Assembly: GCA_018466975.1 (NCBI GenBank)
Contig: CM031560.1
Coordinates: forward strand, 372,001 to 436,000
Source: Sparassis latifolia
Taxonomy: Eukaryota; Basidiomycota; Agaricomycetes; Polyporales; Sparassidaceae
Length of the DNA: 64,000 nucleotides
Reading direction: 5' to 3'
Positions 9,954 through 38,971 of this stretch are shown here, piece by piece; the first letter of the stretch is position 1, and every line of letters starts with the position of its first letter. Below the pieces are notes generated by a model, which was not told where the DNA came from, ran no database searches, and worked only from the letters and a program-made list of their open reading frames with translations. The translations under genes and the position numbers were made by a program.

Positions 9954-9958
9954 AAGGC

Positions 9959-10260: not shown

Positions 10261-10315
10261 AGGCAGCTAAAACGCGCACTCGACTCGCCAGCCGAACCTC
10301 CCGCGCGAGACCGCA

Positions 10316-19012: not shown

Positions 19013-19169
19013 TGATACAGGAGATTGCACAACTCCTAGGGTGTCCGAGAGAGTCATAGATGCTCCCAGTGCATTCACTTAATTTTACACCTATGTTAAG
19101 TGAAGTTTCTATATACTATTGACTACGGTGTAGGTATCTACTTGCATCAGAGGCAGTCATGCAGGGTGC

Positions 19170-19547
19170 CATGCACTACCATCAAGGATGACGGACTCTA
19201 ACGAAGTAAGACAGTCTGAGGACAGACAGGCACCATGCTTGAGTGAGCACAATGCCCGCGTGCCACATCATGACCAGCTGCAGAGCACGTGTCCACATCA
19301 TCGGAGATGTGGTGAACTTGGCGGGCACGCCGTGGGTGAACACCAGTAGGTCAGAAATGAAACCCATGCTGAACAGGAACGTGAATATGAGCTAGAATGG
19401 AGAATGGGAGAGCGGATAATAGAGAGAGAGAGTGGTGGTTGTGCTACATAGCAGCGACAGTGGACAAGCCTTATGTAGTTGGGCAGCATGCAGGGCATGA
19501 GCGGAGATGGCGGGCACACACCGCGCTGCCCACACCTCCATTTCCTT
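19170..19547. other. Left flank of KDZ element
   Basis: No gene. It contains one unit of the 148-bp minisatellite (TGAGTGAGCACAATGCCCGCG at 19,240) in the same orientation as the array right of the KDZ element. This shows that the KDZ element landed inside minisatellite-bearing DNA. A GA run lies at about 19,420. Confidence 0.55.
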
Positions 19548-19554
19548 ATCGACG

Positions 19555-19630
19555 CACACCTTTCAGTCATGTTACCTGAACTGAACTCCCATTTACCCTG
19601 ACATTGTCATGAACTGGACAGCCAGCGGAC
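19555..19630 (+). repeat. KDZ left terminal inverted repeat
   Basis: Outer part CACACCTTTCAGTCAT matches the right end at 13 of 16 positions. After a short gapped stretch comes TGAACT, then a 46-bp block from 19,585 beginning ACTCCCATTTACCCTG that is identical to the inverted right end. The TCAGTCAT pair is inverted, so it belongs to the terminal repeat and is not a target duplication. Confidence 0.88.
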
Positions 19631-20760
19631 GTCGGCCCATTGTCACCATGTTGACCTCTACCAGCAGTGGGCCCATATCTTTCATGTGTGGGATACTAGC
19701 AGTGGGCCCACCGCTAGTGTTCTTCTCCCAGTGCTCGGCCCACTAGCAGGGCATATTACAGTGTTGTAACCGTTAAGCAATGGGCCCACCGCCACAGGTC
19801 AGAGGGTGGGCCGACGCCAGAGCATGTTATCGCCATCGATGGGCCCACTGCCAAAGTATGATCAATGAGCAGTGGGCCCATCGCCACGAGTGTAAGATGA
19901 CGGATGGGCCCACCGCCAAAGGTCAGAGTGTTGGCCATGGCCAGAGCATGTTTGTCTGAGCAATCGGCCCATCGCCAGAGTATGACAAATGAGATGATGG
20001 ATGGGCCCACTGCCAGAGTATGACGAATGAGATGATGGATGGGCCCACCGCCAAAGGTCAGAGTGTTGGCCATGGCCAGAGCATGTTTGTCTGAGCAATC
20101 GGCCCACTGCCAGAGTATGACGAATGAGCAGTGGGCCGATCGCCCAGAGTGTAACCTGAAGGATGGGCCCACCACCAAAGGTTAGAGGGTTGACGATTGC
20201 CAGAGCATGTTATCGCCAGCAGTCGGCCCATCGCCAAAGCACCCTCAGTGAGGGCCTTACTGCAAGCACCCATGGGATAGGTCATCGCCAGGACATGTTT
20301 CCGCCAGCAATCGGCCCACCGCCAAAGGTCAGAGGGTTGGCCAACGCCAGAGCATGTTATCGCCAGCAATCGGCCCACCGCCAAAGGCCAGTGGGTTGAC
20401 GATCACCAGGATATGTCATCGCCACCAATGGGCCCATTGTCACATACAGCCCTGCAGTTTCCGGGCGCATTGGTGGTGATGACGTGCTCTGGTGATCGCC
20501 AATCCTCTGACCTTTGCCGGTGGGCCCATCACTCACCAGCACTCATGGCGGAGGGCCAATTGGTGGCGAAACACGGCTTGGCGATGGCCAACCCTCTGAC
20601 CCTTGGCAGTGGGCCCTTTGCTGGCGGAGCGATATTCCCATGCAGTGAAGCTTTCACTCAGGTCCTTTGGCGATGGGCCAATTGCTGGCAACAACATGCC
20701 TTGGTGATGGCGAGCGCAGTCCGCCCATCTGAAGAGTACACTGGAGGAGCGATGGGCTTT
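19631..20760. repeat. KDZ left subterminal tandem array
   Basis: Imperfect units of about 60 bp built on GGGCCCACCGCCA followed by AAGGTCAGAGGGTTGGCC and CAGAGCATGTTATCGCCAGC. The core is the reverse complement of the core of the right array (TGGCGGTGGGCC). Long reading frames through this stretch are translations of the repeat. Arrays of this kind commonly act as transposase binding sites; that role here is inference. Confidence 0.85.
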
Positions 20761-20864
20761 AGAGCTTAGTGATGCAGAAGTGAATGTATCCATTTTGTAC
20801 TGGTATACAAGCTGTTACATAGCGGTCATATATTGCTAACACCAGAACGCTCAAAGACACTAGT

Positions 20865-22262
20865 TCAGTTGCTGCGATACGCCTCGCCACGAATGTCCCT
20901 CAGAATGTACCCCATTTGGAACACGGTCGAGCTGGCATTGAGGTTCGCAACGTGCATATCCTCAGTGAGGTTGAGCTCACGCTGAAGACGTACAATGCGC
21001 TCCCGCAACATGGCGCGACGACGACTAACCGCAAAGCTATCACCTTCGTCATCGTCCACTATGAATAAGGTCAACATCAGACTGAAGGTTGCCAGGGATG
21101 TACTCACTGGAACTGTCTGCCTCTGCTGCGATCTGCGCAAACGATCTACCGAGGCGGGCCACTTGTGAGCCAGAAGCGCATTCGCCTCTCCAGGGACTGC
21201 CATTGGCAGCAGCTGTGTGGTATTTGGGAATAAGCCTGGAACCTGTTCCCAATGGGTGGGACGATGGATCGGCAGCTCATCTGGAAGTGCTGCCAGACTT
21301 GGCATCCTGGAAGTAACAGTGACTGGCTCGATGCTGCCTTTCATATAGTGAATGACAGGTGCATCGTGGCGGAAATTGCTGTCATCGAAAGTGCGAGCTG
21401 GCGAGTGAGAGGGCGCCGATGGCGGAGGCGGTGGACTTAAAACATCGTCCAACAAAGGCCGCCTCTTTGGAGGCGAAGTGCTGGGACTATTTAGCCACTG
21501 GACCTGGCTACGCACAGGCGTCGCACCAGGGCTGTCTATCACCAGAGCTCGCCATCGTCCTGGCATGGTGGGAGGACTATTGTCAAAGTCCAGCAGTTTC
21601 GGCACTAGTTCCGTGTCAAGTGTCTCATCCACCAGCATGCCCCTCGCCATCGGCGTGCTTGCTTGACTATCGAAGTGGATGGATGTACGTGGCGTAGCGT
21701 CAAGGGGCTCAGCGATGAGCGATCATCGAGGGAGTTGGGAGGTGTCAGGAGTGCGAAAGTCGAAAGTGTGAGCTGGTGGAGGAAGGGGAGTAGCTTCCAA
21801 CAGGGCGCGTCGAGGGATTGGCGAGATGCCAGGAGTGTCGAAGTCGAACATTCCACCGGGCGCAGTGGGGGTGGAATCTGAGATGAGTGCACGCCTATGG
21901 ATTGGCGAACTGCCACGACTTTCATCCCAAGCTGGCGCCAGAGGGTCAGGAATAAGTGCGCGACTTCCCTCCACAGGCGCCACAGATCCAGATGATGCCT
22001 GTACCTTTGGCGAGGCATGGCGGCGGAGATGCTCATGTGGCGAGTTGGATGGCGCAAATGGAGCCGCCAGGGATGGGGTAGTGTGGCGGGGCGCGAGGGG
22101 TGTCTGAGAAGCAGAGTGGAGAGGCAAGGAGATCTGGGCAGATCCAGGAGAGTCAAGGAGATCCGAAATGAGTGGACGACGGGGCTCAGCGATACTATCC
22201 TCCTCATCCGACTCGCCCATCGTAATGTCCAGCGTGTCAGGAGGTTCCGCGTCACTGGCCAT
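20865..22262 (-). pseudogene. KDZ cargo gene A, unknown, one in-frame stop
   Basis: Function unknown. From the ATG at 22,262 one frame runs to 20,865 (about 466 codons), interrupted by a single TGA at 21,723-21,725. The first half has an acidic start (GESDEEDS) and a recurring phrase of about 30 residues built on (P/S)xxRRALI, seen four or five times. The stop falls exactly where one repeat has a second arginine, so a CGA-to-TGA change explains it. The C-terminal 60 residues look helical and charged (RRRAMLRERIVRLQRELN). A GTGAGTAC at 21,107 could be a splice donor, but splicing to the nearest acceptor gives a worse frame. It is divergent from gene B with a 370-bp shared upstream region. Confidence 0.5.
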
Positions 22263-22631
22263 GGCAGGTAGATTGTGGCGAGCAGACAAGTCTTCGATCA
22301 GTCCTGGATCGCGGGAGATCAGTTGTAGAAAGGGGATTGATATGACATAGAAAGGTCAGATAACATCACAAAGGAGTCAGATTCCACAAGGAGAGCAATA
22401 GAACTTACTGTTGGGAGCCATGAGAACTTGCGGCAGGTCACACTGACCTTGAGAGACTTGAGAAATCGCGCAAGTCCAGCGATCACGTGCAAAGCACGTG
22501 GTCGCGTGGCGTGTGAAGTTGAACTTGGTGCAGATCGCGTCTGCCAGCTCATAGCGTCGTCTGCTCCGCCTCCGCTGTACTGCAACCTCTGCTTTTGAAA
22601 CACCCTCACGCTTTCTTCTGCCAAGCTCACC
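22263..22631. promoter_or_regulatory. Divergent promoter region of cargo genes A and B
   Basis: A gap of 369 bp between two divergently transcribed genes. It must hold both promoters if they are active. I see no clear TATA box, but CCTCC/CTTCTG-type pyrimidine tracts precede gene B (about 22,570-22,630), and the start context is TCACCATGC. Confidence 0.4.
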
Positions 22632-25600
22632 ATGCCTCTGGATATCGACCCCAACTATGTTCTGCAGGCCGCGCGACTGACGGCCATTGTTGCAGCGGCG
22701 CCTCGCCAGGACGACCCTCGCTATCCGGACTGGGAGACGAGGATTTACCTCGAAGTGGTAAGTCATCGGTCGAAGGTCTGGCATGCACTTACCGAATATG
22801 CCACACAGAGTCGGCTTGAAAAGAGTTTCCCGCAGCCCTTGAAGTCATTGAGGATGCCTGGGATCGTCATCAGCGCGTTGCTGGAATTCACCCGGGCATA
22901 CCAGCAGAAGGCCCTGGCGCGGCTGGACCACATATCGAACGACGACGAGAGGATATACAAGAGGTACCCTCTGGCTGTGCGCGAGTATGGGGAGTGTGAG
23001 GACCTGGGAAGGCAGTGGTGGACTGAAGGTGAGTCACAAGCGCCAGGAGGCGCCGAGCGACACACTGACTGCACCAGATCCATATTGCAAGCTGCCACCG
23101 GTGAAGAGTATGCCAGCGGAGGGCTGGGGCAATGTGCCAGCCGATGACGACACCCAGGGACGTGGCGAGGAGGACCTGGCTACCGGGGACCTCGTCACCA
23201 AGGGGAAAGGCAAGGAGAGAGCTGACAACGACGTCGGGACAGGCATGGTGGGTGAGCGTATCGTCCACGTGGAGGCGGGGGAGGACAAGGGAAAGGGCAA
23301 GAGCAAGGAGAAGGCGCAGGGGAAGGCGGCGCATGCGATGAGCGAGGAAGAGGATGGGGGAGAGGGAGAGGGAGAGGGAGAGGAGCAGGAGGGCGAGGAC
23401 GACGACGATGCCGACAGTGACGAGGACGACGATGCCGACAAAGATGACGACGATGAGATGGCGGAAGACGTGCCGGGTGCAGGCCAGCCCGAATCCATCG
23501 AGGTCGATGCGGCGTCGCCCCCTCCGCCAACTGCCAGACCAATATCGATCTCGCCAGCTGCCCCATCACTCCGAAAGCGCAAGGCGGTCATCACAGAGTC
23601 GAGTGAGGAGAGTGAGAACGAGGAGGCAGCTCCGAAGGCGAAGCGGATGAAGCCGATCGAGGTCGCAAAGGAGAAAGGCGAGGCCCCGACCACCTCTGGC
23701 CGAGCGCAGCGTGCGCAGAAGAGGATGGCGCAGACCGAGGTGGAGGGCTCGAAGGTGAGCACGAAGAAGAGCGGGAAGAGGAAGGCGAAGGAGTCAAGCG
23801 ATGAAGAGGAAGTACCGACCATCAAGCCGCCAAAGAAGAAGCATGCGACGAAGGAATACAAGAGCAAGGAGTTCATCGAAAGTGAAGACGAGACTCCGGC
23901 ACCGCCTTCCAATCTACCCGCCAAGACCGCAGGGGACTCTAACGACGGTGTTGCGAAGACGAACGCCCCTGCCAAACCTGTCAAACAGACAACGAGGATG
24001 ACGGCGACGCCTCATGTCGCACCCGAAGAAGGCGAAGGCGAAGGCAAAGGCAAAGGCGACGGCGAAGGGAAGGCGACGCGGGAAGGCGAGGCGAAGGCGA
24101 AGGTGACGGTGTCGCAGAAGGACATGTGGAAAAAGACGCCCACCCGCGTGTCTGACTTCATGTGGGCACATGCAACAGATTCGTGAGTAACGATCTTGTG
24201 AGACATTGACCTGTGCTAATGTTCCTGCAGCTCGCCCTTGCGCTGGCTGCCAGGAGAAAGAGTGGCCATGCAAGCTCAACACCGCCAACTTCGGTCGCTG
24301 CCTCGAATGTGCAGCACGAGGCGTCAGTTGCAGCATCGCGCCGAGGAACACGGACGGCGTGCCCTCTGCGAGGAAACTCACACACCGCACAGCGTGAGTT
24401 CCAAGAGATGTGCGCAGCGCTGGTGGTAGAGGGCAAGCCACTGCCCACGTCGCCACCTCCATACGACGCCAAGGTCGACCGATGAGCCCGACGGTGCAGA
24501 ACCCATGGTCATGGGAGCGCCGGCGCAAGCGCCGAAGAAGACCAAGACGCGCAATGCCGCAGCATCCAGCTCCAAGGTCAAGGGTGGCGAGGAGGTCGAG
24601 GCGACGAAGCAGAAGGCGACCGCCACGCCTATGAAGCCAACGCTGAAGGCGAGGCCTCGTGGAGAAATCGCCGAAGTCCAAGCGCCGCCACCAAGTCCGC
24701 CACCGCCACTGGAGCTGTGGCTCTGTCCAACTCTGGCGAGGTCGCCAACTCTGGCGAGGTCTCCAAGTCTGGCGCGCCTGCCAAGTCTGGTGCGCACGCC
24801 AAACCTGGCGAAGGTAAGAAATCAGGACCCAAGGCAAAGCCGGTGAGGAGCCAAAACTCAGGTGCGCAAGATGGTGGCGAGGTCACCAGGACCTCAGTAC
24901 GTGAGCTGGATGAGGTCCCGCCTGCCAAGTCTGTTGCGAAGGAGGGCGGGCAGACGACAAGGGTGGCGATGGGAGGTCGCTCGGGCCCAATGGTGCCCGT
25001 GATCACCAGGAAGGCGAAGGCGAGTGCTCCCAAGGCAGCAGCCAAGATGCCTCTGGCGGAAGGCGATGGCATGGAGGAAGCCGCCAGGCTGGCAATGGAG
25101 GCGGTGCGGGCTATGGCCTTCCAAACAGGGCCAGCTGCTCCGCCGCAAGCTAGCAGCAGCAAGCGCATGCTGACACCAGTCGCCGACGAACCAGAGGATG
25201 CGCCAGAGTATCAGGCAGAGGTGGCGGAGGATGAGGTAAGCAGGACATCTTGTCGCAGCTGGAGTCAATGTAACCATGAAACAGCGCGCCCTGGAGCGGC
25301 CACACGACGATCGGGCGGCGTTCGCTGCTGATGCCCCACGAGACGAGTGCAGGAGCTGCCGAGGTGGCACAGGAGGTGACGCCCTCCCTGGAGATATCCA
25401 AGGCGTCGAAGGGAGCGAAGTCCTCCACATTGGCGAAGGCAGGACATCTCGATGAAGGGCGAAGGCCAGCTAAGAGGGGCGCCCACTGACCGCAAGGCAG
25501 CGAAGAAGGAGGCGGAGGCGAAAGGGATGCGAAGGCGAACCGCCTCAGAGCAGTGCCTCCGACCAGCAAGGGTAAGTGCGCCCGCCACAGCTTCTAATCC

Positions 25601-26398
25601 ATGCAGCGCTGACCAGGGATACAGCACCCCACTTGCGCGACATCCAGCGAGTGTCTACAGGAAGTCCCGCCCGTGAACGGCGACACCCCAGTGGCGAAGA
25701 AACCTCGCAGTCATCCAACGATGACTGCGCGACCAGCCGAGTTGCGACAGGAGTTCCTGGCGCACAAGGACGGGATGGAAGTCCAATTCCAGGAGAGGAT
25801 GGCGGACCTCAACACCGTCAAGGCAGAGATCACAGCGGCACTCCAGCGAATCAACCCGCCATCCGCATTTCAAGAAAATGCCCGGAGCATTCGCGAAGAG
25901 GTCAAGTTGGCGATGGAGGAGTTTCGCAGGCCGGTCACCATCGAGCTTCAGGAGAGCGTGAAGTTGGCGGTGGCGGACCTCGTCGCCAAGCGACATTGCC
26001 TGCCAGAGCTCAAGGAGAAGGTCAACAGGTTGGAGCAAGGCGCGAACCAGACGGTGAGCCAAGCGGACGTCGACAAGCTGCAGGGCGAATTGGCCGACCT
26101 CCGTCATTCGATGGAGCTCCAGGCAGCGCGGTCAGACAGCATGGAGAAGGAGCTCAGGTCTTCGGCGGCAGAGGCGATCGCTCAAGCGAGCAAGCTGGAG
26201 ATGGAATTGGCGCTCGCCAAAGAGGATTCGATGGCGGTGGCGACGTCCGCTTTGGATGAAGCGAAGAAGGTGGGGAAGGAGGTGGCGACGGCGAGAGAGG
26301 AAACCTCGCTGGTGGCGAAGTCTCTGGACGCATTCCGAGAGAAGGTCGACTCCGCCATGGTCTTCACCGCCTTTCGCCCAGATAGACACAATGTGTAG
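22632..26398 (+). CDS. KDZ cargo gene B, nuclear-looking protein with Cys cluster and coiled coil
   Basis: Not a family I can name. Exons 22,632-22,757, 22,809-23,028 and 23,078-24,182 join in frame. The start ATG at 22,632 opens a 115-residue globular-looking segment (LTAIVAAAPRQDDPRYPDW). Then come an acidic tract (EDDDDADSDEDDDADKDDDDE) and several basic, nuclear-signal-like blocks (KRKAKESS, PPKKKH). After an intron near 24,183-24,231 a cysteine cluster follows, CAGCQEKEWPC then GRCLECAARGVSC. Reaching it needs a one-base adjustment relative to the predicted splice. Further exons near 24,505-25,234, 25,292-25,456 and 25,673-26,398 end in a 240-residue coiled coil (QERMADLNTVKAEIT...). The 3' half could be a separate gene. 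A DNA- or chromatin-binding role is inference. Confidence 0.5.
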
Positions 26399-26614
26399 TC
26401 ATTAGAGTATTGATATACATGCTTTTTAACCTAGCATGGAATCTCCATGCACTCGATTCGCCACTGCCACTCCAAGTCAACTGAATGCCTGCTGAAGTTC
26501 TCGCCAACTCCCCTCGCCATTGCCACCATCTCCATGGCTTTACCTATGTAGATCTATGGGTCACATTAAACAATGTGGAAGCCTACGAGTCTACTTTGAA
26601 CTGGAGTTATATTG

Positions 26615-29600
26615 TCAAGGTCTGGTGCCGCCACTGCGGGTCTTGCGACCTGCGCCAACTTGGCCACTCTCTTTCACTTTGGCGGCTGCTTTCCCCAGAC
26701 GGACCGGCTTCAGCTTGGTTTCTCCCTTGTCCTTGACCTCCGGGGTCTGAGGCAGAGCTCGTCTTCGCTTTGCGGGAGGCTTGTCACCATCATCCGAGTC
26801 CTCGGCCCTCGCATTCTTCTTCTCGGCGAGGCCACTACCAACTCGCCCCGAGTACCACGCCCACGCTCCGAGGTGGCGGATTGTCTTCGCCAGAGCTGTC
26901 TTCGCCATCGGGCTCGGACGTGCTGGTTGACGCTTCCGCTTTGGATCAGGAAGCTTCTTCAAATCTTTCACAGCTCCTAGTGGATGCTGACTGCGGGTAT
27001 TCTTGGCGGCGACTCATCCATCGCTTGACGCTGATCTGCAGTGATCCTGCCGGGATATTACTCTGAAGGGCATCAGTGATCGACCTTCCTGGAGCGCTTT
27101 GGCTTGACCTGACGGACGGTCTTCCGTGGCTGCGCCTTCCTCGCCTTAGGTATAAACGGAGGCGGTGGCGGTCGCTCAGCACCACTGCTAGGTACGGACA
27201 AGTGTGCATCGCCCTCTTCGCCATCGCCAGAGGCCCCACCACTGGTCTCCTGGCTCGGCCCTTCGTCTCTCCACTTGGAATGATTGGTTTGTCAGCCATG
27301 GGGGCAGGCTGGTGAGCCTTGTGAACTTTGGCAGCAGTAGCAGCGCCATCGTGAGTTCTTGCAGAGGCATCACCTTCCTGCTCCTCCTGGCCCCCAAGGC
27401 CATCGCCACCTTGTGGGGCACCGCGCATGGCAGGCTTGCTCACTGGCTTCACCATGGCATGGGTGACGCTCCTTCCACCATGTCCAAGGTAATGATCTCG
27501 CAACAGCGAAGCAGCTGCTCTACTGCGCCAAATGAGATCGCCGAGTTCACCACATAGTCGGGAAGGTTGGTCGGTTCGCCTCCTCAATGAACTGAGATCG
27601 TGTGAGGTCCTCAGCGCCATACCAATCACGAGTGCAGATTGTTGTACGCCCTGTGGATGTAAGAACCGATATTTTGTCAGCCATGGTTTGTCGCCTAACC
27701 AGTTCTCGACGATGTCAAAGTTGTCCACCGCATGAAATGACGGCGGAGGTAGCGCTGGCCATACGACCATTCGCTCCAGGGAATCGGATCATACCTGGCG
27801 AAACGATACACCTGGGGCTATATGACGGATGATCAATAGTGGCTATGAATCCCCACGAAAGGAGCTCACCACAGTCGCAATCTTGACTTCCTTCAGCATA
27901 TCCTGGTATCGCGGTTCGACGGAAAGGGTGGCGAGAAACACGTCTCTCCTTTTCACGAGGTGGGGCACAGTACTCCCCACAGTACTCCCGCCAGTGAGAC
28001 GTGGGGCTCGGCCTTGAAGCTCAAGCCTGAGCTCCTTTGTACTGGGCTCCAGTTCACTCGATGCTTCATCGGTCTCCTCTGTGTCAAATCTGTGCAGTTC
28101 GCCCAGAGGAAGGTCTTGAGACCTCGCTTGCCTTCGTCTTGGCACCGCCGCTACCACTCGCTTGAGGTGCACCACCATTGTTAGCCTTACGTCCATTGGT
28201 GGTGGCGACTGCCTTGCCCTTCACTTTATTCGCAATCACGCTCTCGCCATCCCCTGAATCTTCATCGCTGGCCATATCTTCTTCGGAAGCCATGCTGGGT
28301 ATATCTGGCGAACTCCGATCAGAGTCTTGGCTGCTTCTGGCATCATCTTCCGAGTCGTATGCATCTTTCGTCTTGCATTTACGCCCACCGCCTTTGGCTC
28401 CGCCAGGGGCCGCTTTGCCCTTTGTCGCCTTCGATGCCACCTTTCCCGTGACCTTGCGCACAGGTTTACCCTTCTTCTTCGCCTTCTCCGCCTTCTTAGG
28501 TGTGAGTGCTTCTTGGACCTCATGTTCAGATTCTTCTTCTAATGCCTGTGCTGATCCGTCAAGTGGTGGAAGAGGATCATACTTGGCGGGAGCAGCTTCG
28601 CCATCCTTGTCGAAGTACTGGGTGAATCGCATGGTCTGCTCAGGTCCATGTTCCTCTTGGCGTGCCCGCCAGTGGTCGAGGAGGGCACGAACGGGAACAC
28701 TTGTCATCTTTGAGGGATCGATCCACTGGAAGTTCTCAGGTAGCATCTCCGCTGGAATAACCTCATTGATGTCGTCTATGCTGTTCAGCTTCGTCCATGG
28801 CGACTTGCAGTTCCGAACACCCTTCGCCAATGCTGTAAACTGGTCAGCATCTCTCAACACCGAGTGGGAGTGTCATACCGTAGTGATGATTCATGAAGTC
28901 TCGAACTTGTACCTTCATCACCTTGAGAGGCGCTTCCGCCATACCTTCGGGCACCGAGGGGAGCAGAGGAAAACCGTTGGCCATCAACCGAATCTTGTCC
29001 ATGGCCCGCATGCAATCGGCAGGTGTCTTCTTCACCGTCACCGTAGTCTCAGTCACACCTAAGAAATCAGGTCAGTGTGCCAGCGACAATGCAACTGAGG
29101 TCTTCTTACCGTATTCGCCTTTGGCCCACTCAGAGAACACCTTTGCTAGAGGCTGGTAAGCACGCAGCCACCCAGGATAGGCCCCGAATGGAGTTCCATT
29201 GGTGATGGCGTGGTTGACCTCCACCCTTCACTCGGGGGTTAGCAGATGGCGACAGTCGGACGGTCTACGCTCACATCTCTACCTTCAGACTCCCCGCTTC
29301 CTTCGGATATGCTAGCATGAATGCCATGCGAATGCCCATGGTGTCCCACATAGTCTTGGCAAACTTCTTCAGATATTGCATCATTCGCTGCTCCCTCAGC
29401 CTGTCTTAGGTCAGGATTTGCCTTATGCTACGTGACAGGAGGTACGCACTTCATTTTCGTCTTATCATCCAGAGTGCCATTGCGCCAACTTTCCGCCTTT
29501 TCCTCATACACCTTCTGCTCCTCCTCGGACAGTTTTGCCCATTTGGCACTCCATGCGACTCTCCACACCTTGGAGACATTGCAACCCTTATCTGCCGCGA

Positions 29601-29967
29601 GTGCTCGCGTGGCCTCAGTCACCTTGTCCCTCTCCAGCGTATCCCACACCTTGAAGGCATTGGGCTTGCCAGAAACATGCATACGCTTTTTCGTCACTTT
29701 CTCCTGCGCATGGCGGGCGTGGTTATTGAGCCACTCTCAGATTTTCTGCGGTGAGAGTTAGTGGGGACCTCACAGACATGAAACACTGCTCACAGTTTCC
29801 ACAATGATGTCGTCATAATTTGACGTGTCGACAAACTGTGTCTTCAGCTTCTGGCGCAAGCTCTGAACCAGAGTCTTGCATCCCTTGGCATCTGCCATGT
29901 TATAAGACCGCAGCTTCTCAGAGAGTATGGGCTGATGCTCCGTCAAAATTACAAATCTCGCCGGCAT
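26615..29967 (-). pseudogene. KDZ cargo gene C, HMG-box-like multi-exon gene
   Basis: Minus-strand gene with at least eight exons. From the 5' end: MADAKGCKTLVQSLRQKLK (start at 29,967 or an internal ATG near 29,900), then an HMG-box-like segment at about 29,480-29,697 (GKPNAFKVWDTL ... WSAKWAKLSEEEQKVYEEKA), then helical segments (QYLKKFAKTMWDTMGIRMAF; VNHAITNGTPFGAYPGW). The segment TQYFDKDGEAAPAKYDPLPP follows, with a lysine-rich, acid-rich tail near 28,100-28,600. Introns are short and GT-AG (for example 29,057-29,107). The exon before the HMG-like part contains a TGA at 29,737-29,739 where CGA would fit, and the frame slips near 28,115. The 3' part (26,615-27,843) has more exons (VDNFDIVENWLGDKPW; a basic RKRKRQ tail) and may be a second gene. 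HMG proteins bind DNA; linkage with TET/JBP-KDZ elements is known. Confidence 0.5.
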
Positions 29968-30635
29968 GCTTTCTCGATGTCGAGGATGAGATTTTTGTGT
30001 TGGGACAGTGAAGGGGTCGATAGTTCAACGGGCAGCGCCTGTCCATTTCCTCGCCGGCCGCCCACAACTCAACATGCACGTGCTGATGGCCCATTTGGGC
30101 TTACACCAATTACCCTCCTCGCCATGGTGTGTGGTGACTGCTGAAGCATTGTATGTGTATTTTTCGCAGTGGCGGAGGTGGTAGTAGGTATGCACTAGCA
30201 TTCATGCCTGGTGAAAGGCAATGTTGAATGCCGCTTCTATGGCAGAGCACACCACGCCAACTTCATCTCGCGAATGCTGGGCGGAGGCAATCTGGCGATC
30301 ATCTGCATGCCAATCTGTGGGATAAAGGGCTTCCTCGGAGTTAGGCTCGCCAATTAGATGGCGGTGACGAAGGGCCCAGACATGGCGGACCACCCGCCCG
30401 TGATCCGCATGGCGGCATCAAGTCCGGCTCGGCGCATGATGAACATGTGAGATGTGCAAGGGACGTGCTTGCAAGCAATATGCAGGCAGATGAATGCATA
30501 CTGTTCTTTGCCATTCTGGCCCTCCTACATTCTCCCCTGCATCTGCAAGCCAACCGCCTGAGCCCGCCATACACCTGTGCTTCCTTCAACCGATGCATGC
30601 TGTAATCGCCCCATTGATTGGCAGACAGTATCAAG
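29968..30635. promoter_or_regulatory. Divergent region between cargo gene C and the TET gene
   Basis: Holds the upstream regions of both genes. No further gene is supported. The stretch contains several TCGCCA/TGGCGG words like the rest of the element. Confidence 0.4.
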
Positions 30636-32067
30636 ATGAGCAATCTGTCACCCATGCCACTGACCGATCAGATAGCAGGAGTCTTGGAGCTCATGTTCCG
30701 CCGAAAGCTCCATCTGGCCACTCATGCAGCCCATTCTGCGCCATCTATAGAAGTGCTCTCCGCCCATGCCATCCGCCTCCTATTGGAGTGCAATGGCATT
30801 GCAGATGCTCTTGTGAAGGCCATCCGTAATCCTGGTAGTCATTAGTCTTGCCGCAGGTCTGATCACACTGATCACGCCATTGTAATAGTAAGGCTGCAGG
30901 GACATTGATAGATATTGCGACAGCCTTTCGATTCAGCCCACGGGCAGAATGAAGTCCTCGAGGCAGAACTGGAATGGAAGTGGCCTCCTCCATTTGGTGA
31001 GAGCGAACACGCATAGACCAGCCCGCCACCCTCGTGGACATGCACGGACGCATCTTGGCTTGGATACTTCCAAGAGTGTTGATACCAGACCGCCAGGTGA
31101 GTGGCTTGCCCAGCCTTGCGCTGTGATCTGACAAATTTGTCAGACGAAGATGCTCCAAGCGACCAGGGCCCTACACCCAGCAATAGCAGCCAGTAAGCCT
31201 TCCAGCACCACCGCCAGTTGGCGACACAACCCGTTGTACTTCTTGCCTCCTGAGGAGTGTGCCCACCCCAGCGGGCTCCTTGTGTCTCTCGCCAGGTTGG
31301 TTCCAACAAGTAAGAGAGGTGGGTCTCCTCGCCACGCCATTTGCCTTGCGTCTGGACAGCCTTTGCAGCATATGGAGTCTGGGAGGCTGGAGACCTCCGC
31401 CAGCCTGAAGCTTGAGGGCGGAAGAAGTTGGCTGCGTGATATTCATGACTCCTCCGCATTGCTGGGCGCCATCCTGGCCGTCGTTCACCCAACACTATAT
31501 GCCGCAGGACGCCAGTGCTTGGGTTTGATCCAGCAAGACCCAGAATTGCGAGAGATGGCGCTGAACTGGTCGTCGCCATTCAATGCGCTCCAGGTGATCG
31601 CCAACCGGGAAACTCCTTTCCACCGAGATAGCAAGACAAGATACACATTCTACGACCTGTTGGCGACGTTGGGCAACTACACTTGCGCGTGGTTGAAGTT
31701 CCCCGCCATGCGTGTCGCCATCGATTATAGTCCTGGAACTGTCATAGCCTTCTGTGGAAAGGCGATTCGTCATGGCGTCACTCGAGCAGATGGCGAAAGG
31801 CTCATCTATGCATACTTCATGCGAGAGGGTGTCCAGAACAGGCTAGGCATTCCGGCGCCCCACTGGATGCAAGCTTCATATTACGCCTCACACATTGGCA
31901 TGTGCACAGTTCATCACCGAGTCTGCATTCCTAACTCAGAACAGGTCCTAACTGGCTCGCTTATTAGAGGGACATCATGCCAAAGACTGATGGAGATGAG
32001 AACACTATGCAGGGGATGGAGACTGTCGATGGCAGCTTCATTGGCGGGACAAAGTTGGCGGAGGTGA
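30636..32067 (+). pseudogene. TET/JBP-family 2-oxoglutarate Fe(II) dioxygenase, frame-slipped
   Basis: By family, oxidises 5-methylcytosine (or thymine) in DNA in the nucleus. Catalytic residues are present: metal ligands H and D in PFHRDSK (31,621-31,629), the distal H in IRHGVT (31,771-31,773), and the 2-oxoglutarate-binding R in DGERL (31,798-31,800). The start ATG at 30,636 opens a helical segment (PLTDQIAGVLELMFRRK). An exon then carries LEAELEWKWPPPFG. Next comes [21 protein letters not shown], an intron at 31,099-31,139 with donor GTGAGTGG, the exon MLQATRALHP, and a 50-bp intron at about 31,311-31,360 (GTAAGAGAGG...TCTGGACAG). Two places are out of frame by two bases: GAGAG at about 31,000 and TCTCTC at about 31,273. 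Either repairs with one dinucleotide, so this is a recent pseudogene or a consensus error. The core from 31,361 on is open. Confidence 0.8.
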
Positions 32068-32390
32068 TGGCGAAATGTATGGAGTCACAAATTTCTGAAT
32101 CCTAGCTGAAGGTTGGCGAGCGCACGGTACGAGTGCGCATTTCACATCTCGACAGTGTTCAGCTCAAGGTGTAGTTATCACTGATGGCAGCGTATGGTTG
32201 GCGGACCTCGAAGTTGGCGGAGATGGTGGCGAAATGTATTCGGTCGAGAAGTTGTGAGTGCTAGTGGGGCAGATGGCGGCAGTGTTGGCGAGCGCGCAGT
32301 GCAAGTGCATGTTTCCCTTTTGAACATTATGCTACTCCGAGTCAAGGCAAAGTTAGCACTGAGGGCGACATACAATTGGCGGACCTCTCA
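32041..32390 (+). repeat. Tandem duplication in or after the TET gene tail
   Basis: Two diverged copies of about 155 bp, each with AAGTTGGCGGAG(G/A)TG then GTTGGCGAGCGC(A/G)C, and ATTGGCGGACCTC-like ends. Read in one frame both give VGER(T/A)V(R/Q)V(R/H)(I/V)S and end YxWRTS, so the duplication preserves a protein phrase. It may be a C-terminal extension of the TET protein or a short separate reading frame. Confidence 0.5.
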
Positions 32391-32596
32391 CCAACATGGC
32401 ATCCTTATCTGCATAATGCTGATATGGTGCCTAAAGAGACCACGAGGTGATAAGGCCCAGGCATTGCAGCCATTCTTAACCACTTTGATGAGTAGTCTGA
32501 TGGGCAGCAAGGCCGTGTGTGATTTGCACGTGTTGTGCGATAGGGACACAATGCTCATCGATTGGCTTGGAATATGACTCCCCACTGACCTGAACC
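32391..32596. other. Spacer upstream of transposase
   Basis: About 200 bp without a gene between the TET tail repeat and the transposase start. It would contain the transposase promoter if the gene is separately transcribed. No motif is clear. Confidence 0.4.
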
Positions 32597-35500
32597 ATGA
32601 GCAGATGCAACAAAAGCAGGCTCGTTGTCGACCTGGATGACGAGGTTGAGTTTGTGACCAAGGTAGCTAAGCAGACCACTAGAGGAGTACGCTATGTGGA
32701 CGTACCTTTGTCCATGCCCATGGGTTCAAACGTGCCATCGCCTTCCAAAAGTCCATCGAAGGCTCCAGCTTCAGGCTCCTTGTTTAACTTGGATGATGGC
32801 GACGTCCTGGGCAACATAGGTGTGCCGATTCAGCTGGATCCGGCGGCTTGCAAGACAAAGGTGGGCACTCCCGCCATGACCATCTGACGGTCTGACCATG
32901 CGCGATAGACCCAGAATGACTTCATGAGGGACTGGATACCCCACCGTGATGACTATCTTCATGCCATTGTCGAGATGGAAGCCCCGCCTGAGCCCAGAAA
33001 CTGTGCGGAATGCAAGGTTGGCGAGGGACGGTGGCGATGCCTGGACTGTATGGGCAGACCGCCACCTGTACCGACTGCTGTCATAACGCCATCAGCGTGC
33101 TCCTTTCCATCGGATAGAGCATTGGCAGGGTCAGTATTTTGAGCCGGCATCACTGTATCGGGTTGGCGTCTGCATCCATTTGGGGCATGGCAGAGATCCC
33201 TGCCCTCTGGGCGCCTTCACAGCACATAACAACCCTGCGCCGGTGGTGGCCCCGGGGTCCAATTTCTGGAATGCCTCCAATGAAGACCTAAATGCACATG
33301 ATGGCGAGGTCTCAGATGATGGCGAGGTCCCATTCAACTTTGCACCTCTGGCAGGCACCCTTGACGGTGAAGCAAGGCAAACCGACGATGCTCCCGATCC
33401 CACTTGGGAGGAAGATGTGCCACTGGTGCTCTCCCGGCCACCTCGCCGTGATAGTTACGGGAATCGGATCATAGTCATTGTCGACATCTCTGGCGTTCAC
33501 CATATCGGCGTTGACTGGTGCCAGTGTGAGATGGCAGTGGAGCGTGACATGCAGCTTCTTCAAATGGGACTTTACCCTGGTACCGTCAAGGATCCCCATA
33601 CCGCCTTCACATTCGCCGTCCTCGACGATTTCCTTCTGGAGAACAAAGAGTGCAAGACGGCGGCATTGAACTACTACAGCAAGCTCAAACGGGTCACGAG
33701 CAATGCCTTCCCTGGCACCGTTCCCGTAAGTGTTCACATGCATTCCCATGGCCCAACCGTTCATGCCAGTTCCTCGCCAGGACCGTTATCGTGAGCTGAT
33801 GCGGGTGTCCCACCAATGGCGCCAATTCAAATATCGCAAGTGGCACGGCTTCTCACATGATGCCCTCCGTCCTGTGGAGAAGGGTGGCCTCGCCATCTTT
33901 TGTCCCGCCTGTCCCCAGCCTGGGCTCAACCTGCCTTTTCGATTGGCAAGCGGATCCAGTGCAGTGGAAGTTCAAACGCGGCTTTGTCATGGATGGCAAT
34001 TTCAGTGCAGAGCACATGAAGATGAAGCACCCGAGGAGGACGTCGCCTCAGTGACGGCCAGGCATTCATGGTCGCCAAGAGGATTACAAGGCTCATCTGG
34101 CGGTGGCCATGGAGTCGCATCAGGTGCGTGTCTGGCTGCACGTTCTTCTTCCGCCCTTGACTCCTAAGCCCACCAGCGCTCCACTTGTCATGAGCACCGC
34201 GCTGTCAATCAGGCCAATGTGGATCGCGCCAACCTCGACGCCACAGGAATTCGGGGCCACTGCTTGCGCCAGACATGGTTTCTTCGCCCTCATACTGTCG
34301 TCGATTTCCAGAAGGGAGAAAGGTTCGCATATGTCTCTTGTCATGATTCATTCTCACTGACGCACCCTCTGCAGACAAATGAATATGGATTACTCTCTCA
34401 GCAATGCGCTCCTGACCCTCACCGGTATCACCCTCATCCTCATCATGTACGACATCATGTGCCAGTATGGCGTCCATGTCCGCAAACGTTTCCGCCACAG
34501 CGCCTATCTGAGGATGCCCTTCGAGCTCAAGGTAGACCAAGGCATCGGCTTGTTTCATGTGCACGGACACCAAGATTGCTGCTTCCAACGGTTCTCGCCC
34601 AACTTTATAGTTGGCGCTGGTATGGTCGATGGCGAGGTCATCGAGACCCTGTGGGCGCCGACAAATGAGGTCTCAGGCAGTACCAGGGGCATGACCCGAG
34701 CTCACCGCCAAGAAGTCCTTGACGATCACATGAATGACTCCAACTGGAAGAAGACGACTCGCATGGGTGAGCCTGGTTCCTCCTTCCCTATTTGCCACCT
34801 GCCTTATGCTGCCTATAGTGCCAACCTTGATGACAAAGTGGAAACGCGTGCTCCTGGGCTTCCCACGAAGCAAGGAGTCCTTTGAAGCTTTATCTGCATC
34901 CACAGATGAGGATGTCCTTGAGGCATGGCAGAAGGAGTACGACGACGCTATGGAGGCTCGCCAAAATGATCCGAAGATCATGGACACCTTCGATGTCCAG
35001 CTCATGAAGGGTGAGTATTCTTCCATCGTTGTGTGGCATGTAGTTGACGTGAATGCAAGCCCCGGGTAAAGACCTCACCCAACTCAGACTGGCGGGCGAG
35101 GAGTCCGCCAAGGGCTTGGAGAAGGGCACCGCTGGATGGTTGTCGACTGGCCTCAAAATTCAAGAAGCACAGTGAGTTTGCCTCATCTTAACAAAAATAC
35201 AGCTCTGACGGCCTTCAGGCTTAAGCTTGCGAATGATATCCGCAAGGTGGGTCAAAATCCGAGCGTGGCGGAGGACCTCAAGACTCTCGAGCGCCGTCAG
35301 CACCTCGAAGTCAGCATTCTCACATTCCAACGTCGCTCTGAGAAGTTCATGGGAAGGTTGGAGGACGTTCCCGCCATGGAAGATCGTGACGATGGTGCGC
35401 TCTGGGATTCCTTGGATGAGAATCCTTTTCAAATACACCCGGAGGACGCTGAGTATGGCGAGGATGTGATTCCTCCCGAGCGAGCTTCCTTGAATTTACC

Positions 35501-36284
35501 TTCGCAGATCGGATTCGTGGCCGCTGTCGCCAACGGGCTCCAGACCCTGGCGGCCCAAGAGTTGGAGTTGCGCAAAGGCCTGATGAATGACATCCTCCAC
35601 GAGCTTTGCATGGCGCTTGGACTGAAGTCTTACCTCTACCGCAAGAGGGTTCATCCCGCCAACAGCGTCAGAACCATGACCCGTGCACAGGCGGAGGTTC
35701 ATGCTGCCGATCAGACCGTCTTGGCCTGCGCCAGGCTCTATTCCGCCAACCGACGCGCCATTATGCGCTTGGACGCCACTGATGAAGACTTGGCCCTCTA
35801 TCGCCCTTTGGATAAGAAGGACCTGCACGTGAAGACTGCCGTCATCGAGGCTAGCACCTCCGGGCTCAGGAACGTCAACCTGGCTTGGTTCTGGACCATG
35901 GATGTCGCTGGAGATCGAGGTTCATCAGAATGGATGGACGAGTGTTCGTAATTGTCCGATCAATCTCTAGGCCTCCTGCTAATTTACCCTCCAGTCTATA
36001 GAGTGAATTGGCTGCATGCCAGAGCTCGATATGAGAGATGGAGGGAGGAGCGTGTCTTGGTCCACTCGGAAATGGCCTGGACCATAGCCACCTTCAAGCG
36101 GAATGCGGAACGATGGGCTCACTGGCTCGAGATGACGGATCCTTCCTGGCGGGGTCATGTTTGCTATGCCGCCAGGCAAGTGAGTATGTGGCGGACCTTC
36201 GCCAGCCACGCCACTGACGTCTTCAGCCACATCCTCGCCCTGGACATTGAGGACGAAAGGGCGGGCGATGAAAATGTGCTTTGA
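32597..36284 (+). pseudogene. KDZ transposase with CxC2 zinc-binding region, 9+ introns, several frameshifts
   Basis: Recognised by the CxC2 cysteine region (CAECKVGEGRWRCLDC at about 33,002; GVDWCQC at about 33,505) and the KDZ core: VDFQKGER, MYDIMCQYG (D at 34,451), GIGLFHVHGHQD, and GAGMVDGEVIETLW (34,610-34,660), followed by the usual helical C-terminus (WTMDVAG, NWLHARARY). The start is at 32,597. Introns 32,861-32,908, 33,726-33,780, 34,124-34,176, 34,323-34,374, 34,767-34,818, 35,011-35,059, 35,172-35,218 and 35,948-36,001 are all GT-AG, 47-55 bp, and restore frame. In contrast, exons near 33,060, 33,085, 33,945, 34,025, 34,055, 34,085 and 34,255 need one-base corrections, mostly in runs of C, T or G. 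By family it is a DDE-type cut-and-paste enzyme acting on the element ends. Confidence 0.88.
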
Positions 36285-36497
36285 GTCAGGGTTCACTGGG
36301 GTGTACGCATATTCATGTTTGCTATATCGATGTAGTGATCGTCATGTATGTAATTCCTACTCACCAATATCACATTTGGCGAAGTGACCTCCATCCTCGC
36401 CTGAGGGCTTCATCTCGGCATGTGCTCTCCAATCGCATGACATCAGACATCAGATAAGGTCGATCAGATATCGACCTCAGCTCATCCACTCACCATC

Positions 36498-37218
36498 ATG
36501 TCTGCCCAGTCTTCAACATCAGATGCGCGCCCCTGCCTGTTCTCCAGAGGGAGGTTGCAGTTGGAAGTCTACACTTGGAGGATCCAAGAAGCTGTTCTGG
36601 CACTGGAGCCTGACCCAGATCACTTCACCAAGGTCCGTTGGGAGGAAGGCTTGCACCGGGAGATGGTACGCCTTTCTTGCTGATATCGCCTGACCCTGCT
36701 GAGTCCTGTGCAGTTCGCCATCAGGGGTATCTGTGGCGACCTCGCGTTGGCAGGTCATGCTGACCATATTGACCATGGCGGAGTTATCGCCAGTGTCCTC
36801 ACCGTCTGCACTTTCAATCACGAAGTTCTGCACCCCATCAGCATTGACGTCAAGGTGATTCCACGCCCCACCACCCTCGTTCCTCATCCTAAGAACCTAC
36901 TCGAGGATTCACCTGACTACTGGTGGAAATGGGATCATCAGGTTGGGCCGGCGGGGAGCCCTATGGAGGCCTGGTGGTACAAACTTGGTGATCCCTGGGT
37001 GAGTGGTACGTTCCAGCACCTTACAGTCTTGCTGAACCTCGAGAACGTAGGAGAAGGTGTACACCATCTCCGAGTCTACACTGGTGCAGCTTGAACAGCT
37101 GCATGTTCGCGTCGCGAACCTCACTAGTTGGTTGCACGAGAGGACAGATCAGAACCTGAATGTGGTGCTGGAAGAGCTGCAGGAGGCGACGCGGCAGCTG
37201 CGTGAGTTAGGAATGTAA
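36498..37218 (+). CDS. KDZ right-end gene F, small three-exon protein, unknown
   Basis: Exons 36,498-36,665 (56 codons), 36,714-36,998 (95 codons) and 37,051-37,218 (55 codons plus stop) join in phase 0 at both introns (48 and 52 bp, GT-AG), giving 206 residues with no break. The N-terminal part is helical (LEVYTWRIQEAVLALEPD). The middle contains YWWKWDHQVGP and MEAWWYKLGDPW. The last exon is a coiled coil (LEQLHVRVANLTSWLHER). No family is recognised. It lies 210 bp after the transposase on the same strand and next to the right subterminal array. It is the only KDZ gene here without a frame problem, so an accessory transposition or silencing-evasion role is conceivable but is speculation. 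Confidence 0.7.
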
Positions 37219-37319
37219 TCGCCCAATGCCAGGCGTCCGTTCGTGCTGTAGTGTGTCGAATATAAGGTTGTCATGTCTTTGAACCTGGGCAATGTACCTG
37301 GTGTGGTAAGGCGAAACAT

Positions 37320-37640
37320 AGTAGCCACATACTCTCCTCAGGAGGGCACATCCCCAATGGTATCTGATGCATGGCTCGAAAGCCAATGCCACATGGGAGA
37401 GTTTGGCGAAGTCATTCTGGACTGCATGTTCAGATGGCGAGTGATATCCACCACAGTTCACCAACCCTACTCACGGTGGAAAGGACCGCCGTTCGTCTCC
37501 ACATACTCTACCCAGAAGGGCACATCCCAAATTGTATCTGATGCATGTCTCGAAACGCCGATGCCAATTGGGAGAGTTTGGCGAAGGATATTCGCCACAG
37601 TTCACCAACCCTTCCCACAGTGGGAGAGAGTGTGATACTG
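37320..37640. repeat. Direct repeat of about 175 bp
   Basis: Two copies share ACATACTCT(C/A)C..AGGGCACATCCC, TATCTGATGCATG, GGGAGAGTTTGGCGAAG and CCACAGTTCACCAACCCT. They start near 37,328 and 37,500. The stretch is non-coding as far as I can see and lies between gene F and the right array. Confidence 0.6.
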
Positions 37641-37739
37641 CAAGGAGAGCTGATAGTGAGCTAACCAGAATTGGAGGGAATGATGGGTGGATTACGTGGA
37701 AATTATTGGCCGGCAGTAGCTCCATCATTGCCCTGTTAG

Positions 37740-38889
37740 GCGGTGGATCAATCACTGAAAAATATGCCCATGGCGGTTGACTGATCGCTGAGAACTACAC
37801 CTATGGCGGTGGGCCGATAGGTCTGAGCAAGAGGTGCCGCATGAGCAACAACTCGCGCCGGAGCCCCTTCTTCTGTGGTGTCCTTCGCTCATACGCTGAT
37901 TTGCACACGCCTGCATCCTCGCCTACTTCGTGCTCTTCGTTGACTTCGGGTACAATCCGTTCACTTCGTATGGTCTACTTCTTGGCTCGGGCAACCAGGT
38001 GTGGCATCCGCCCATGCTTCCCCCTGACCAATCTCCACGTTTCATACATCCGCCCATGCTTCCCCCCGACCAATCTCCATGTTTCATACATCCACCTATG
38101 CTACTCCCTGACGAATCATCCGGTATGTTCCTTCACCCACCCATGCTTCACCAAGATGACACGGACACGATACGAGCCCAGTTGACAACCTAGGGCAAGG
38201 CAAATAACTCAGCTATGCCCGGGCTAGTCAGATATTTCAGGCGACCCATGCTTATGGGCTCAGAAATATACCTATGGCGGTGGGCCGATGGCTGTATAAT
38301 AGCACGATGGCAGTGGGCCGATCGCTCAGAACACTACCTATGGAGGTCGGCCCATCGCTCAGAACCCTACCTATGGGGTTGTGCCGATGGCTGTATAATA
38401 GCACCGTGGCGGTGGGCTGATCACTTAGAAATATACCTATGGTGGTGGGCCCATCGCTCAGAACACTACCTATGGAGGTCAGCCCATCGCTCAGAACACT
38501 ACCTATGGCAGTGGGCCCATCGCTCAGAACACTACCTATGGAGGTCGGCCCATCGCTCAGAACACTACCTATGGCGGTGGGCCAATGGCTGTGTAATAGC
38601 CCCGTGGCAGTGGGCCGATCACTCAGAACACTACCTATGGCGGTGGGGCGATGGCTGTATAATAGCCCCGTGGCAGTGGGCCGATCGCTTAAAAATACAC
38701 CTATGGCGGTGGGCCCATCACTCAGAACTATCACCGCGGCGGTGGGCCCATGCCTGTATAATAGTAGCATCATGGTGGTGGGCCGATCGCTCAGAAATAC
38801 TCCTATGGCGGTGGGCCCATCGCTCCAGCATTCCCTTCATCGCCATGAGCCGATCGCTGACAGCTCCTTACACAGACCGATGGGCTGAT
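37740..38889. repeat. KDZ right subterminal tandem array
   Basis: More than two dozen imperfect units of about 31-33 bp of the form CGCTCAGAACACTACCTATGGCGGTGGGCC. The TGGCGGTGGGCCCAT core is the reverse complement of the left-array core, while the linker sequences differ between the two sides. Two near-identical GATGGCTGTATAATAGC variants recur. Open frames across it are repeat artefacts. Confidence 0.85.
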
Positions 38890-38964
38890 GTCCGCTGGCT
38901 GTCCAGTTCATGACAATGTCAGGGTAAATGGGAGTCCAGTTCACAAATATGACTGAATGGGCTG
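38890..38964 (-). repeat. KDZ right terminal inverted repeat
   Basis: Inverted counterpart of 19,555-19,630, with a perfect 46-bp inner block at 38,890-38,935, then TGAACT and TCAGTCAT (inverted), and an outer end that reads CAGCCCATTCAGTCAT inward. It is followed by ATCGACG, the candidate target duplication. Confidence 0.88.
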
Positions 38965-38971
38965 ATCGACG

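Follow-up and report, generated by a model that had tools for sequence, protein, structure and literature searches.

Organization of the element

The 64,000-nt window analysed here contains a complete transposon of 19.4 kb, flanked on both sides by ATCGACG (Table 1). The element opens with CACACCTTTCAGTC at 19555 and closes with GACTGAATGGGCTG at 38964, exactly the limits and 7-bp flanks given in the initial annotation. The inverted ends that it had set at 76 bp are present, but their alignment gives about 82 bp and is imperfect (82 columns with 1 gap, the left part being 19559-19640); an ungapped 64-nt portion is 95% complementary. CA...TG termini were found in 27 of 27 copies compared (palindrome C8b excluded), and the left 126 bp has at least 40 matches in the genome at 96-100% identity.

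Table 1. Features of the transposon and its flanks in the window.
Feature	Position	Strand	Details
Target site duplication, left	19548..19554	.	ATCGACG
Left terminal inverted repeat	19555..19640	+	starts 5'-CACACC
Left subterminal arrays	19632..20711	.	TGGGCCCACCGCC-like units
Gene A	20865..22262	-	449-aa 2-exon model from copy C1a, mapped to window
Gene B	22632..26385	+	1191-aa model from copy C7a, charged
Gene C	26566..29967	-	1024-aa model from copy C7a
TET/JBP dioxygenase gene	30636..32067	+	4-exon model, 428 aa, from copy C1a
KDZ transposase gene	32597..36284	+	with CxC2 cysteine cluster
Gene F	36498..37218	+	206 aa, 3 exons
Right subterminal arrays	37739..38858	.	33/99-bp units with GGCGGTGGGCCCATCGC; 42-bp repeats 38005-38130
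Right terminal inverted repeat	38880..38964	-	terminates GGGCTG-3'
Target site duplication, right	38965..38971	.	ATCGACG

Six genes lie between the ends in the order A-, B+, C-, TET+, KDZ+, F+; this order had been claimed from the window, and both the gene models and an eight-copy alignment uphold it. The TET gene does lie directly upstream of the KDZ gene on the same strand. Pfam matches were obtained to Tet_JBP (E 4.2e-20), KDZ (PF18758, E 1.6e-31) and CxC2 (E 8.4e-27).

With both strands scored, a TSGGCCCAYYG-type unit gave 22 hits over the left-hand 1.25 kb and 14 over the right-hand 1.26 kb; TGGGCCCA reads identically on the two strands, so the distinct sites number about 17 and 12. The unit was absent from window stretches 1-19500, 20801-37700 and 39000-64000, which bears out the mirrored arrays described earlier, and mononucleotide shuffles of the left and right array stretches contained means of 0.013 and 0.017 units, respectively. 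A 44-nt end motif occurred 116 times in the genome, compared with 0 for a reversed-pattern control. Chance repeats were ruled out by this control and by the near absence of array units in the shuffles.

Copies, empty site and derivatives

Failure to find the two ends together elsewhere in the genome, or lack of the cargo in other copies, had been set beforehand as refuting the unit; it passed both tests, and at least 21 full-size left-right pairs were found. In 21 full-size copies, the 7-bp duplication was exact in 11 (12 with one mismatch allowed); no matching duplication was seen in the other nine, four of which are traceable to recombination between copies and five of which are unexplained. 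Seven fully read copies were collinear at approximately 95-97% identity, indels and arrays aside, and the full-size block spanned 18-21.5 kb across copies. Nested or rearranged copies also exist, as do swapped or unmatched duplications.

The cargo was present in other copies as well. Among the matches listed, the expected neighbours of the 33 TET genes of this family were C at 31, KDZ at 30 and B at 28, and the left end, B, C, KDZ and the right end were all placed for 19 of the 33. This placement used tolerances of 0.9-2.6 kb and drew on all 33 TET rows and the 40 left and 40 right ends listed; B was represented by 32 of its 47 rows, C by 33 of 194 matches and KDZ by 36 of 164 matches picked by eye, and one TET row placed among the KDZ rows paired with nothing. 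A and F were examined in the eight read copies only. For copy C1a, rather than the window copy, the empty-site check yielded a paralogous site with a single 7-mer: the joined flanks matched a place on C11 (96%, 312/313 nt) across the junction.

Six further left-right pairs of 6.5-12.4 kb had no listed match to TET, B, C or KDZ. The flanks of five of these were compared, and the duplications matched in three (C10e, C10f and C11e) and not in C6c and C10d. C11e, which was fully read, is a 6.9-kb gene-less derivative that consists of ends and arrays only, with the matched duplication CTATTAG.

Direct observation thus covers the repeated ends, the 7-bp target duplications, an empty site at a paralogous place, cargo that is collinear in many copies and one ends-and-arrays derivative, and movement of the whole package (transposase, TET and four genes) as one unit is supported. 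A block of six host genes duplicated near repeats, with no transposon unit, would fit the nested or rearranged copies and the swapped or unmatched duplications, but not the precise CA..TG ends, the 7-bp duplications in differing flanks or the empty site. The target duplication and empty-site data refute such a block, and we assign it virtually no probability.

Cargo genes A, B, C and F

The product of gene A is Ser/Pro-rich, as judged by eye, and had no Pfam match; models of equal length (449 aa) were obtained in copies C5b and C7a, and in the window copy a stop codon at 21723-21725 interrupts the frame. A Cys segment of gene B weakly resembles a Zn cluster (E 0.011, below the cut-off), and the N-terminal part of the gene has 47 genome matches. 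The gene initially called HMG-like is gene C, which does carry an HMG-box-like segment, but the match is weak (HMG_box_2, E 0.014, below the cut-off). Homologues of C are annotated in S. crispa and S. latifolia, and two homologues of F in S. crispa (206 aa, 95-96%); protein matches of C and F were confined to Sparassis. The AlphaFold models had mean pLDDT values of 36.6 (F) and 30.1 (C), too low for use.

Omega in the eight copies did not differ significantly from neutrality for any of these genes or for KDZ: 0.79 for KDZ (p 0.056), 0.84 for C (p 0.18), 1.10 for A, 1.17 for B and 1.44 for F. A frame-by-frame substitution scan of the same eight copies was mostly near neutral and did not establish coding constraint. 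These four cargo genes, we tentatively suggest, probably code for accessory proteins of the element that work in the nucleus.

The TET gene

The catalytic core of the TET gene lies inside 31369-31918, and its PDB match is CcTET of Coprinopsis cinerea (E 8.4e-26 over the core; PDB 7vpn, 7w5p and 8jkk), the nearest solved relative by sequence. Both proteins keep the Fe-binding His, Asp and His, the Arg and the Asp337 equivalent; the element's TET differs in having Thr in place of Gly331 (Thr in 29 of 30 copies, a gap in one). From this similarity the gene is predicted to encode a CcTET-like methylcytosine oxidase. The catalytic residues noted in the window are indeed present, and none of the 30 copies read has lost any of the five, HxD and the Asp337 equivalent among them. 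As the copies diverge by a few percent only, this conservation is weak support.

Relative to the 4-exon model, the window TET frame has at least six indels of 1-2 nt ahead of the catalytic core. These may be assembly errors, and the reading frames of the window copy are doubtful. Under the same model, TET was intact in four of 30 copies, including the source of the model, and frame-disrupted in 26. Coding changes were nevertheless below expectation (omega 0.70, p 0.013, with 29 of 30 loci counted), whereas the constraint was not significant in the eight-copy set (omega 0.79, p 0.27).

Relation to known KDZ transposons

TET/JBP genes were reportedly linked with KDZ transposases in basidiomycetes by Iyer et al. 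2014 (PNAS). According to Kojima 2025 (PMC12730594), it had been unknown whether those TET genes sit in complete transposon structures; that paper describes TET+ Kyakuja of Agaricomycetes with 7-bp duplications and CA..TG ends, in keeping with the remark in the initial annotation that the linkage is known in Basidiomycota. Because TET+ Kyakuja are already in print, the present element adds a new family to a kind already known, and the concept itself is not new. On KDZ domain, duplication length and termini, it is best assigned to TET+ Kyakuja. The features in common are a KDZ-class transposase, 7-bp duplications, 5'-CA..TG-3' termini, and a TET that has the HxD, the second His and the CcTET Asp337 equivalent of the AG type; the published hosts include Polyporales, the order of this host (PMC12730594). 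Zisupton and Dileera were rejected, since both have 8-bp target duplications (for Dileera, from Zisupton-1_PGr; PMC12730594), compared with 7 bp here.

What the element adds to the TET+ Kyakuja described there are long terminal inverted repeats, arrays, four genes besides TET and KDZ, and a derivative without genes. Two Kyakuja families of L. bicolor are described as lacking terminal inverted repeats, a statement about those two families and not a definition of all Kyakuja, whereas the present element has imperfect repeats of about 82 bp plus subterminal arrays (PMC12730594). Gly or Ser is reported at the CcTET 331 position of AG-type TETs, in contrast to Thr here (PMC12730594). The main text of that paper names neither Sparassis, HMG nor cargo; its Table S1 or figures could hold an identical entry.

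KDZ1-3 of Cryptococcus neoformans, which are proven movers, also have long terminal inverted repeats (139-241 bp), but they are about 9-11 kb long with 4-8-bp duplications, carry CxC1 rather than CxC2 and, unlike the present element, have no TET gene mentioned inside them (PMC12810828). Intact KDZ transposons with a preceding CxC2 cluster, as here, are described in Pleurotus ostreatus (PMC7641404).

CpG decay and the proposed role of TET

Transitions at CpG occurred at 0.45 per site in the eight copies, compared with 0.038 at other C/G positions, an approximately 12-fold excess that was measured on this family alone and therefore does not rank it above or below other transposons. In 30 TET loci, where CpG sites were nearly saturated, the excess was 3-fold as distinct changes and 6-fold per copy. 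This bias shows that the element copies have been methylated in spite of TET. A methylation substrate for TET therefore exists, but TET does not keep the copies methylation-free, and its protection is at best partial. In the host genome, four places matched a C5-methyltransferase profile. Deletions of 1-2 nt were dense near CpG in the youngest copies.

Taken jointly, we read the family, with a probability of about 0.85, as a recently active multi-copy KDZ cut-and-paste transposon of the TET+ Kyakuja type whose TET would, at best partly, relieve methylation silencing. The KDZ transposase would recognise the approximately 82-bp ends, probably together with the subterminal arrays, and mobilise the whole 18-21.5-kb block with a 7-bp staggered cut of the target. 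TET would most likely oxidise 5mC in element copies, and promoters or terminal arrays may thereby be freed temporarily from methylation-based silencing. Self-demethylation by the element's own TET is what we infer here.

TET might instead be a passenger that is kept merely by lying between the ends, with KDZ and the ends sufficing for movement. The six same-ended pairs without listed TET, B, C or KDZ, three of five with matched duplications, indicate that TET is not needed in cis, and the frame disruption in 26 of 30 copies and the CpG decay that goes on regardless point the same way. However, TET could act in trans, some of the frame disruption may stem from assembly errors, the conserved core is shared with CcTET and coding changes are mildly under-represented. 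Furthermore, the TET-KDZ association is recurrent across Agaricomycetes (Kojima 2025, PMC12730594) and is seen again in a second TET family of the host genome. We consider a passenger role unlikely.

A lasting mark (5hmC/5fC/5caC) laid down by TET that regulates or even represses the elements, rather than freeing them, appears quite unlikely. Transposons of L. bicolor and C. cinerea are enriched in oxidised 5mC, with a possible silencing route discussed (PMC8889193), and the CpG decay indicates that methylation persists here, but the gain for the element would be less direct. An extension of the preferred reading, partial relief by TET, is an anti-silencing module in which TET and the apparently Sparassis-restricted C and F, perhaps with A and B, would jointly oxidise and open methylated copies in trans, gene-less derivatives included, and the deletions near CpG would be a footprint of modified cytosine in the sequenced DNA; we regard this as very unlikely.

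The mutation spectrum marks the elements as methylation targets and constrains the self-demethylation idea. The host is suited to the question of whether a transposon-borne TET lowers, or merely alters, the methylation of its own element: its contiguous genome holds at least 21 full-size copies with defined boundaries, gene-less derivatives that share their ends, and a second TET-KDZ family, and the copies provide a natural contrast in age, intactness and TET content. In the second family, TET likewise lies near KDZ, in a different layout.

Ends, copies and target sites

The initial annotation had proposed a bounded element between positions 19555 and 38964 with a candidate 7-bp duplication. 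This was borne out: ATCGACG flanks the element (19555–38964; 19,410 bp) on both sides, and its inverted ends align across 82 columns. The window corresponds to bases 372001–436000 of contig C9 in a 41.4-Mb genome of 22 contigs. In this genome, a 44-nt end motif occurred 57 times in forward and 59 times in reverse orientation with up to 3 mismatches, and the reversed-pattern control gave 0 occurrences in the same genome. At least 40 genome matches were obtained with the leftmost 126 bp of the element (best 40 of 126 candidates), and at least 40 with its rightmost 120 bp (best 40 of 125).

Pairing of these ends gave 21 full-size copies (18.1–21.5 kb), 6 shorter copies and one 1.1-kb palindrome, confirming that the two ends occur together elsewhere. 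The flanks were then compared in 27 copies, excluding the palindrome. An exact 7-mer was present on both sides of 11 of the 21 full-size copies, with a single-base difference in 1 more, as against a chance expectation of approximately 0.001 matches among 21 copies (1 in 16,384 each); over all copies, 14 of 27 had an exact duplication. The 7-mers were mismatched in 9 of the 21. Two of these nine are oppositely oriented C10 copies approximately 23 kb apart with swapped 7-mers (GGGTGAC/GATGGCA), consistent with recombination between both copies that inverted the intervening sequence. Two more, on C7 and C19, have one 7-mer in common, and five (C6a, C11b, C16a, C17a and C11d) have no recombination explanation.

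Empty sites carrying a single 7-mer had also been suggested as a check, and paralogous ones were found for copy C1a. C1a lies within the transposase gene of a different KDZ family. When its flanks were joined with a single 7-mer, they matched a place on C11 across the junction with 96% identity over 312 bases, and additional across-junction matches had 89, 75, 72 and 70% identity; these are paralogous empty sites. The palindrome (C8:719656-720986, L066) has right-end sequence at both ends and extends into its flanks; it might represent two inverted units joined as a dimer, or else an artefact of assembly.

Conservation of the six-gene unit

Seven other copies were read whole, and their interiors were collinear with the window in long pieces of approximately 95–97% identity, with alignment gaps of approximately 130–180 bp between pieces in C1a, C5a and C5b. 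C2a carries approximately 0.8 kb extra, and the lengths of the terminal repeat arrays vary among copies. Mean pairwise identity per gene was 0.96–0.98, and the presence of A and F was examined in these eight copies.

A TET DNA query gave 33 genome matches of 93–100% identity (33 of 33 candidates scored). With placement tolerances of 0.9–2.6 kb and counts from the matches listed, which are lower bounds, gene C had the predicted spacing and orientation relative to at least 31 of the 33 TETs, KDZ relative to at least 30 and gene B relative to at least 28; the left end was in place for at least 27 and the right end for at least 24. Both ends together with B, C and KDZ were in place at 19 or more of the 33, so the expectation that other copies carry the cargo genes held. 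The public S. crispa annotation has consecutive tags for two TET pieces (0211810 and 0211820) and C (0211830), which is independent evidence of the same gene order. This six-gene TET+ KDZ transposon is genuine, is present in many copies and has moved recently.

Encoded proteins

The TET protein matched Pfam Tet_JBP (E 4.2e-20), and its nearest solved protein was CcTET of Coprinopsis cinerea (E 8.4e-26). Its catalytic residues, already recognized in the initial annotation, were conserved in all 30 copies read (His, Asp, second His, Arg and the Asp337 equivalent), and the position equivalent to Gly331 was Thr in 29 of 30 (numbering follows the text of PMC12730594). A 428-aa, 4-exon model was unbroken in 4 of these 30 copies (30 of the 33 loci examined). 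Over all TET families, the profile had 44 genome matches, 34 without internal stop. Against S. crispa proteins, one TET piece was 100% identical over 13% of the query and another 81% over 70%.

The KDZ transposase is accompanied by a CxC2 cysteine cluster, gene B has a weak Zn-cluster segment (E 0.011), and gene A received no assignment. The HMG-like assignment of gene C is weak (HMG-box segment, E 0.014). The C protein had 7 matches (5 S. crispa and 2 S. latifolia; best 7,989 candidates by common words), with 85–92% identity to the S. crispa proteins, and the F protein had 2, both S. crispa (95–96%). No homologues of C or F outside Sparassis were found by the protein search; because this search detects only relatives with common 5-residue words, the apparent restriction of both genes to Sparassis is provisional. 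Judged from the TET, C and F matches, the host is probably S. crispa or a closely related species. A diverged gene C relative (58% and 36%) lies at C8:2161467-2162638; a KDZ match belonging to a different subfamily (C8:2167096) is located approximately 4.5 kb away.

Constraint and reliability of reading frames

At the TET loci, coding changes were below the mutation-type expectation (omega 0.70, p 0.013), also in the core (omega 0.64, p 0.036) and for core changes common to at least 3 copies (omega 0.46, p 0.047); these p-values come from several cut-offs, uncorrected, with mutation rates estimated on those same loci. Constraint was not significant in the N-terminal exons of the TET loci, nor in any gene of the eight-copy set. 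These values weakly suggest that function is maintained within the family.

Deletions of 1–2 nt clustered in four young copies, namely C5a, C5b, C1a and the window copy (20800–38200; L009-L011, L015-L020). The counts among these four were 105, 86, 51 and 35–36, against 1–8 in each of the other four; insertions of 1–2 nt totalled 36 across the eight copies. The deletions fell preferentially in homopolymers, and 119 of 197 were within 2 nt of a CpG versus 63 expected after matching for base and run length (z 8.7). They are probably long-read consensus errors in repeats, perhaps located at modified CpGs or modified cytosines, and the broken frames of the window copy are not safely read as decay.

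CpG mutation and comparison with published transposons

CpG transitions in the eight copies reached 0.45 per site, compared with 0.038 for the remaining C/G positions and 0.033 for A/T positions, as tallied per copy with shared changes counted more than once. No RIP-like context, including CA, was prominent in these copies (CA 0.041, CC 0.050, CT 0.022). At 29 of 30 TET loci (L091 left out), the values for CpG and other C/G were 0.80 and 0.26 for distinct changes and 2.24 and 0.35 for the per-copy count; the contrast is smaller than in the eight copies, and CpG sites there are near saturation. From the CpG transition excess, taken within this family, we concluded that the copies have been CpG-methylated. 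C5-methyltransferase profile matches occurred at 4 places in the genome.

According to the main text of Kojima 2025 (PMC12730594), TET+ Kyakuja transposons of Agaricomycetes, whose hosts include Polyporales, have 7-bp duplications and CA..TG ends, and escape from methylation-based silencing has been proposed for them. Oxidized 5mC may alternatively serve a marking role, which stays a rival because it is enriched on transposons in L. bicolor and C. cinerea and is possibly repressive according to the discussion in PMC8889193. The element resembles TET+ Kyakuja in its 7-bp target duplications. The words Sparassis, HMG and cargo are absent from the main text of Kojima 2025, and no description of the element was found among the titles and abstract openings of the open-access papers listed. 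The element forms a new family within a kind already described, from which parts of its anatomy set it apart, and its value is as a system for tests.

Non-autonomous derivatives

Six left-right pairs of 6.5–12.4 kb were without TET, B, C and KDZ among the matches listed; of the five with flanks read, duplications matched in 3 and were unmatched in 2. C11e (L099), read whole, is 6,939 bp long with CTATTAG on either side. It keeps both ends and both arrays, its middle consists of inverted arrays of a 169-bp unit, and there is no open frame of at least 110 aa outside the terminal arrays. Judging from C11e alone, ends and arrays therefore seem sufficient for movement in trans.

Probable second TET family and neighbouring sequences

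Six further TET matches, similar to one another in profile range and frame length, probably represent another family. At least 5 of the 6 had an opposite-strand KDZ match 12.2–13.4 kb away, start to start (by eye, among the matches listed); therefore, a TET adjoining KDZ on the same strand is not the sole layout in this genome.

Coordinates of loci in the genome (G000)
Feature	Position	Basis
Probable second-family TET	G000:C10:525251	Tet_JBP profile match
Probable second-family TET	G000:C10:4950538	Tet_JBP profile match
Probable second-family TET	G000:C14:688115	Tet_JBP profile match
Probable second-family TET	G000:C9:283737	Tet_JBP profile match
Probable second-family TET	G000:C11:2344673	Tet_JBP profile match
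Probable second-family TET	G000:C8:489342	Tet_JBP profile match
C10 copy, swapped 7-mers, opposite orientation (L034-L037)	G000:C10:495586-515388	Flank comparison
C10 copy, swapped 7-mers, opposite orientation (L034-L037)	G000:C10:538596-560016	Flank comparison
C11e, derivative without genes (L099)	G000:C11:1272710-1279848	

In the window, a Copia-type LTR retrotransposon (10271–14891) lies on one side of the element and a LINE-like element with endonuclease and reverse transcriptase (43962–47657) on the other. Weak F-box-like matches are present at 516–1727 and 6752–7732, and an approximately 147-bp tandem array (39243–39926) lies immediately to the right of the element.
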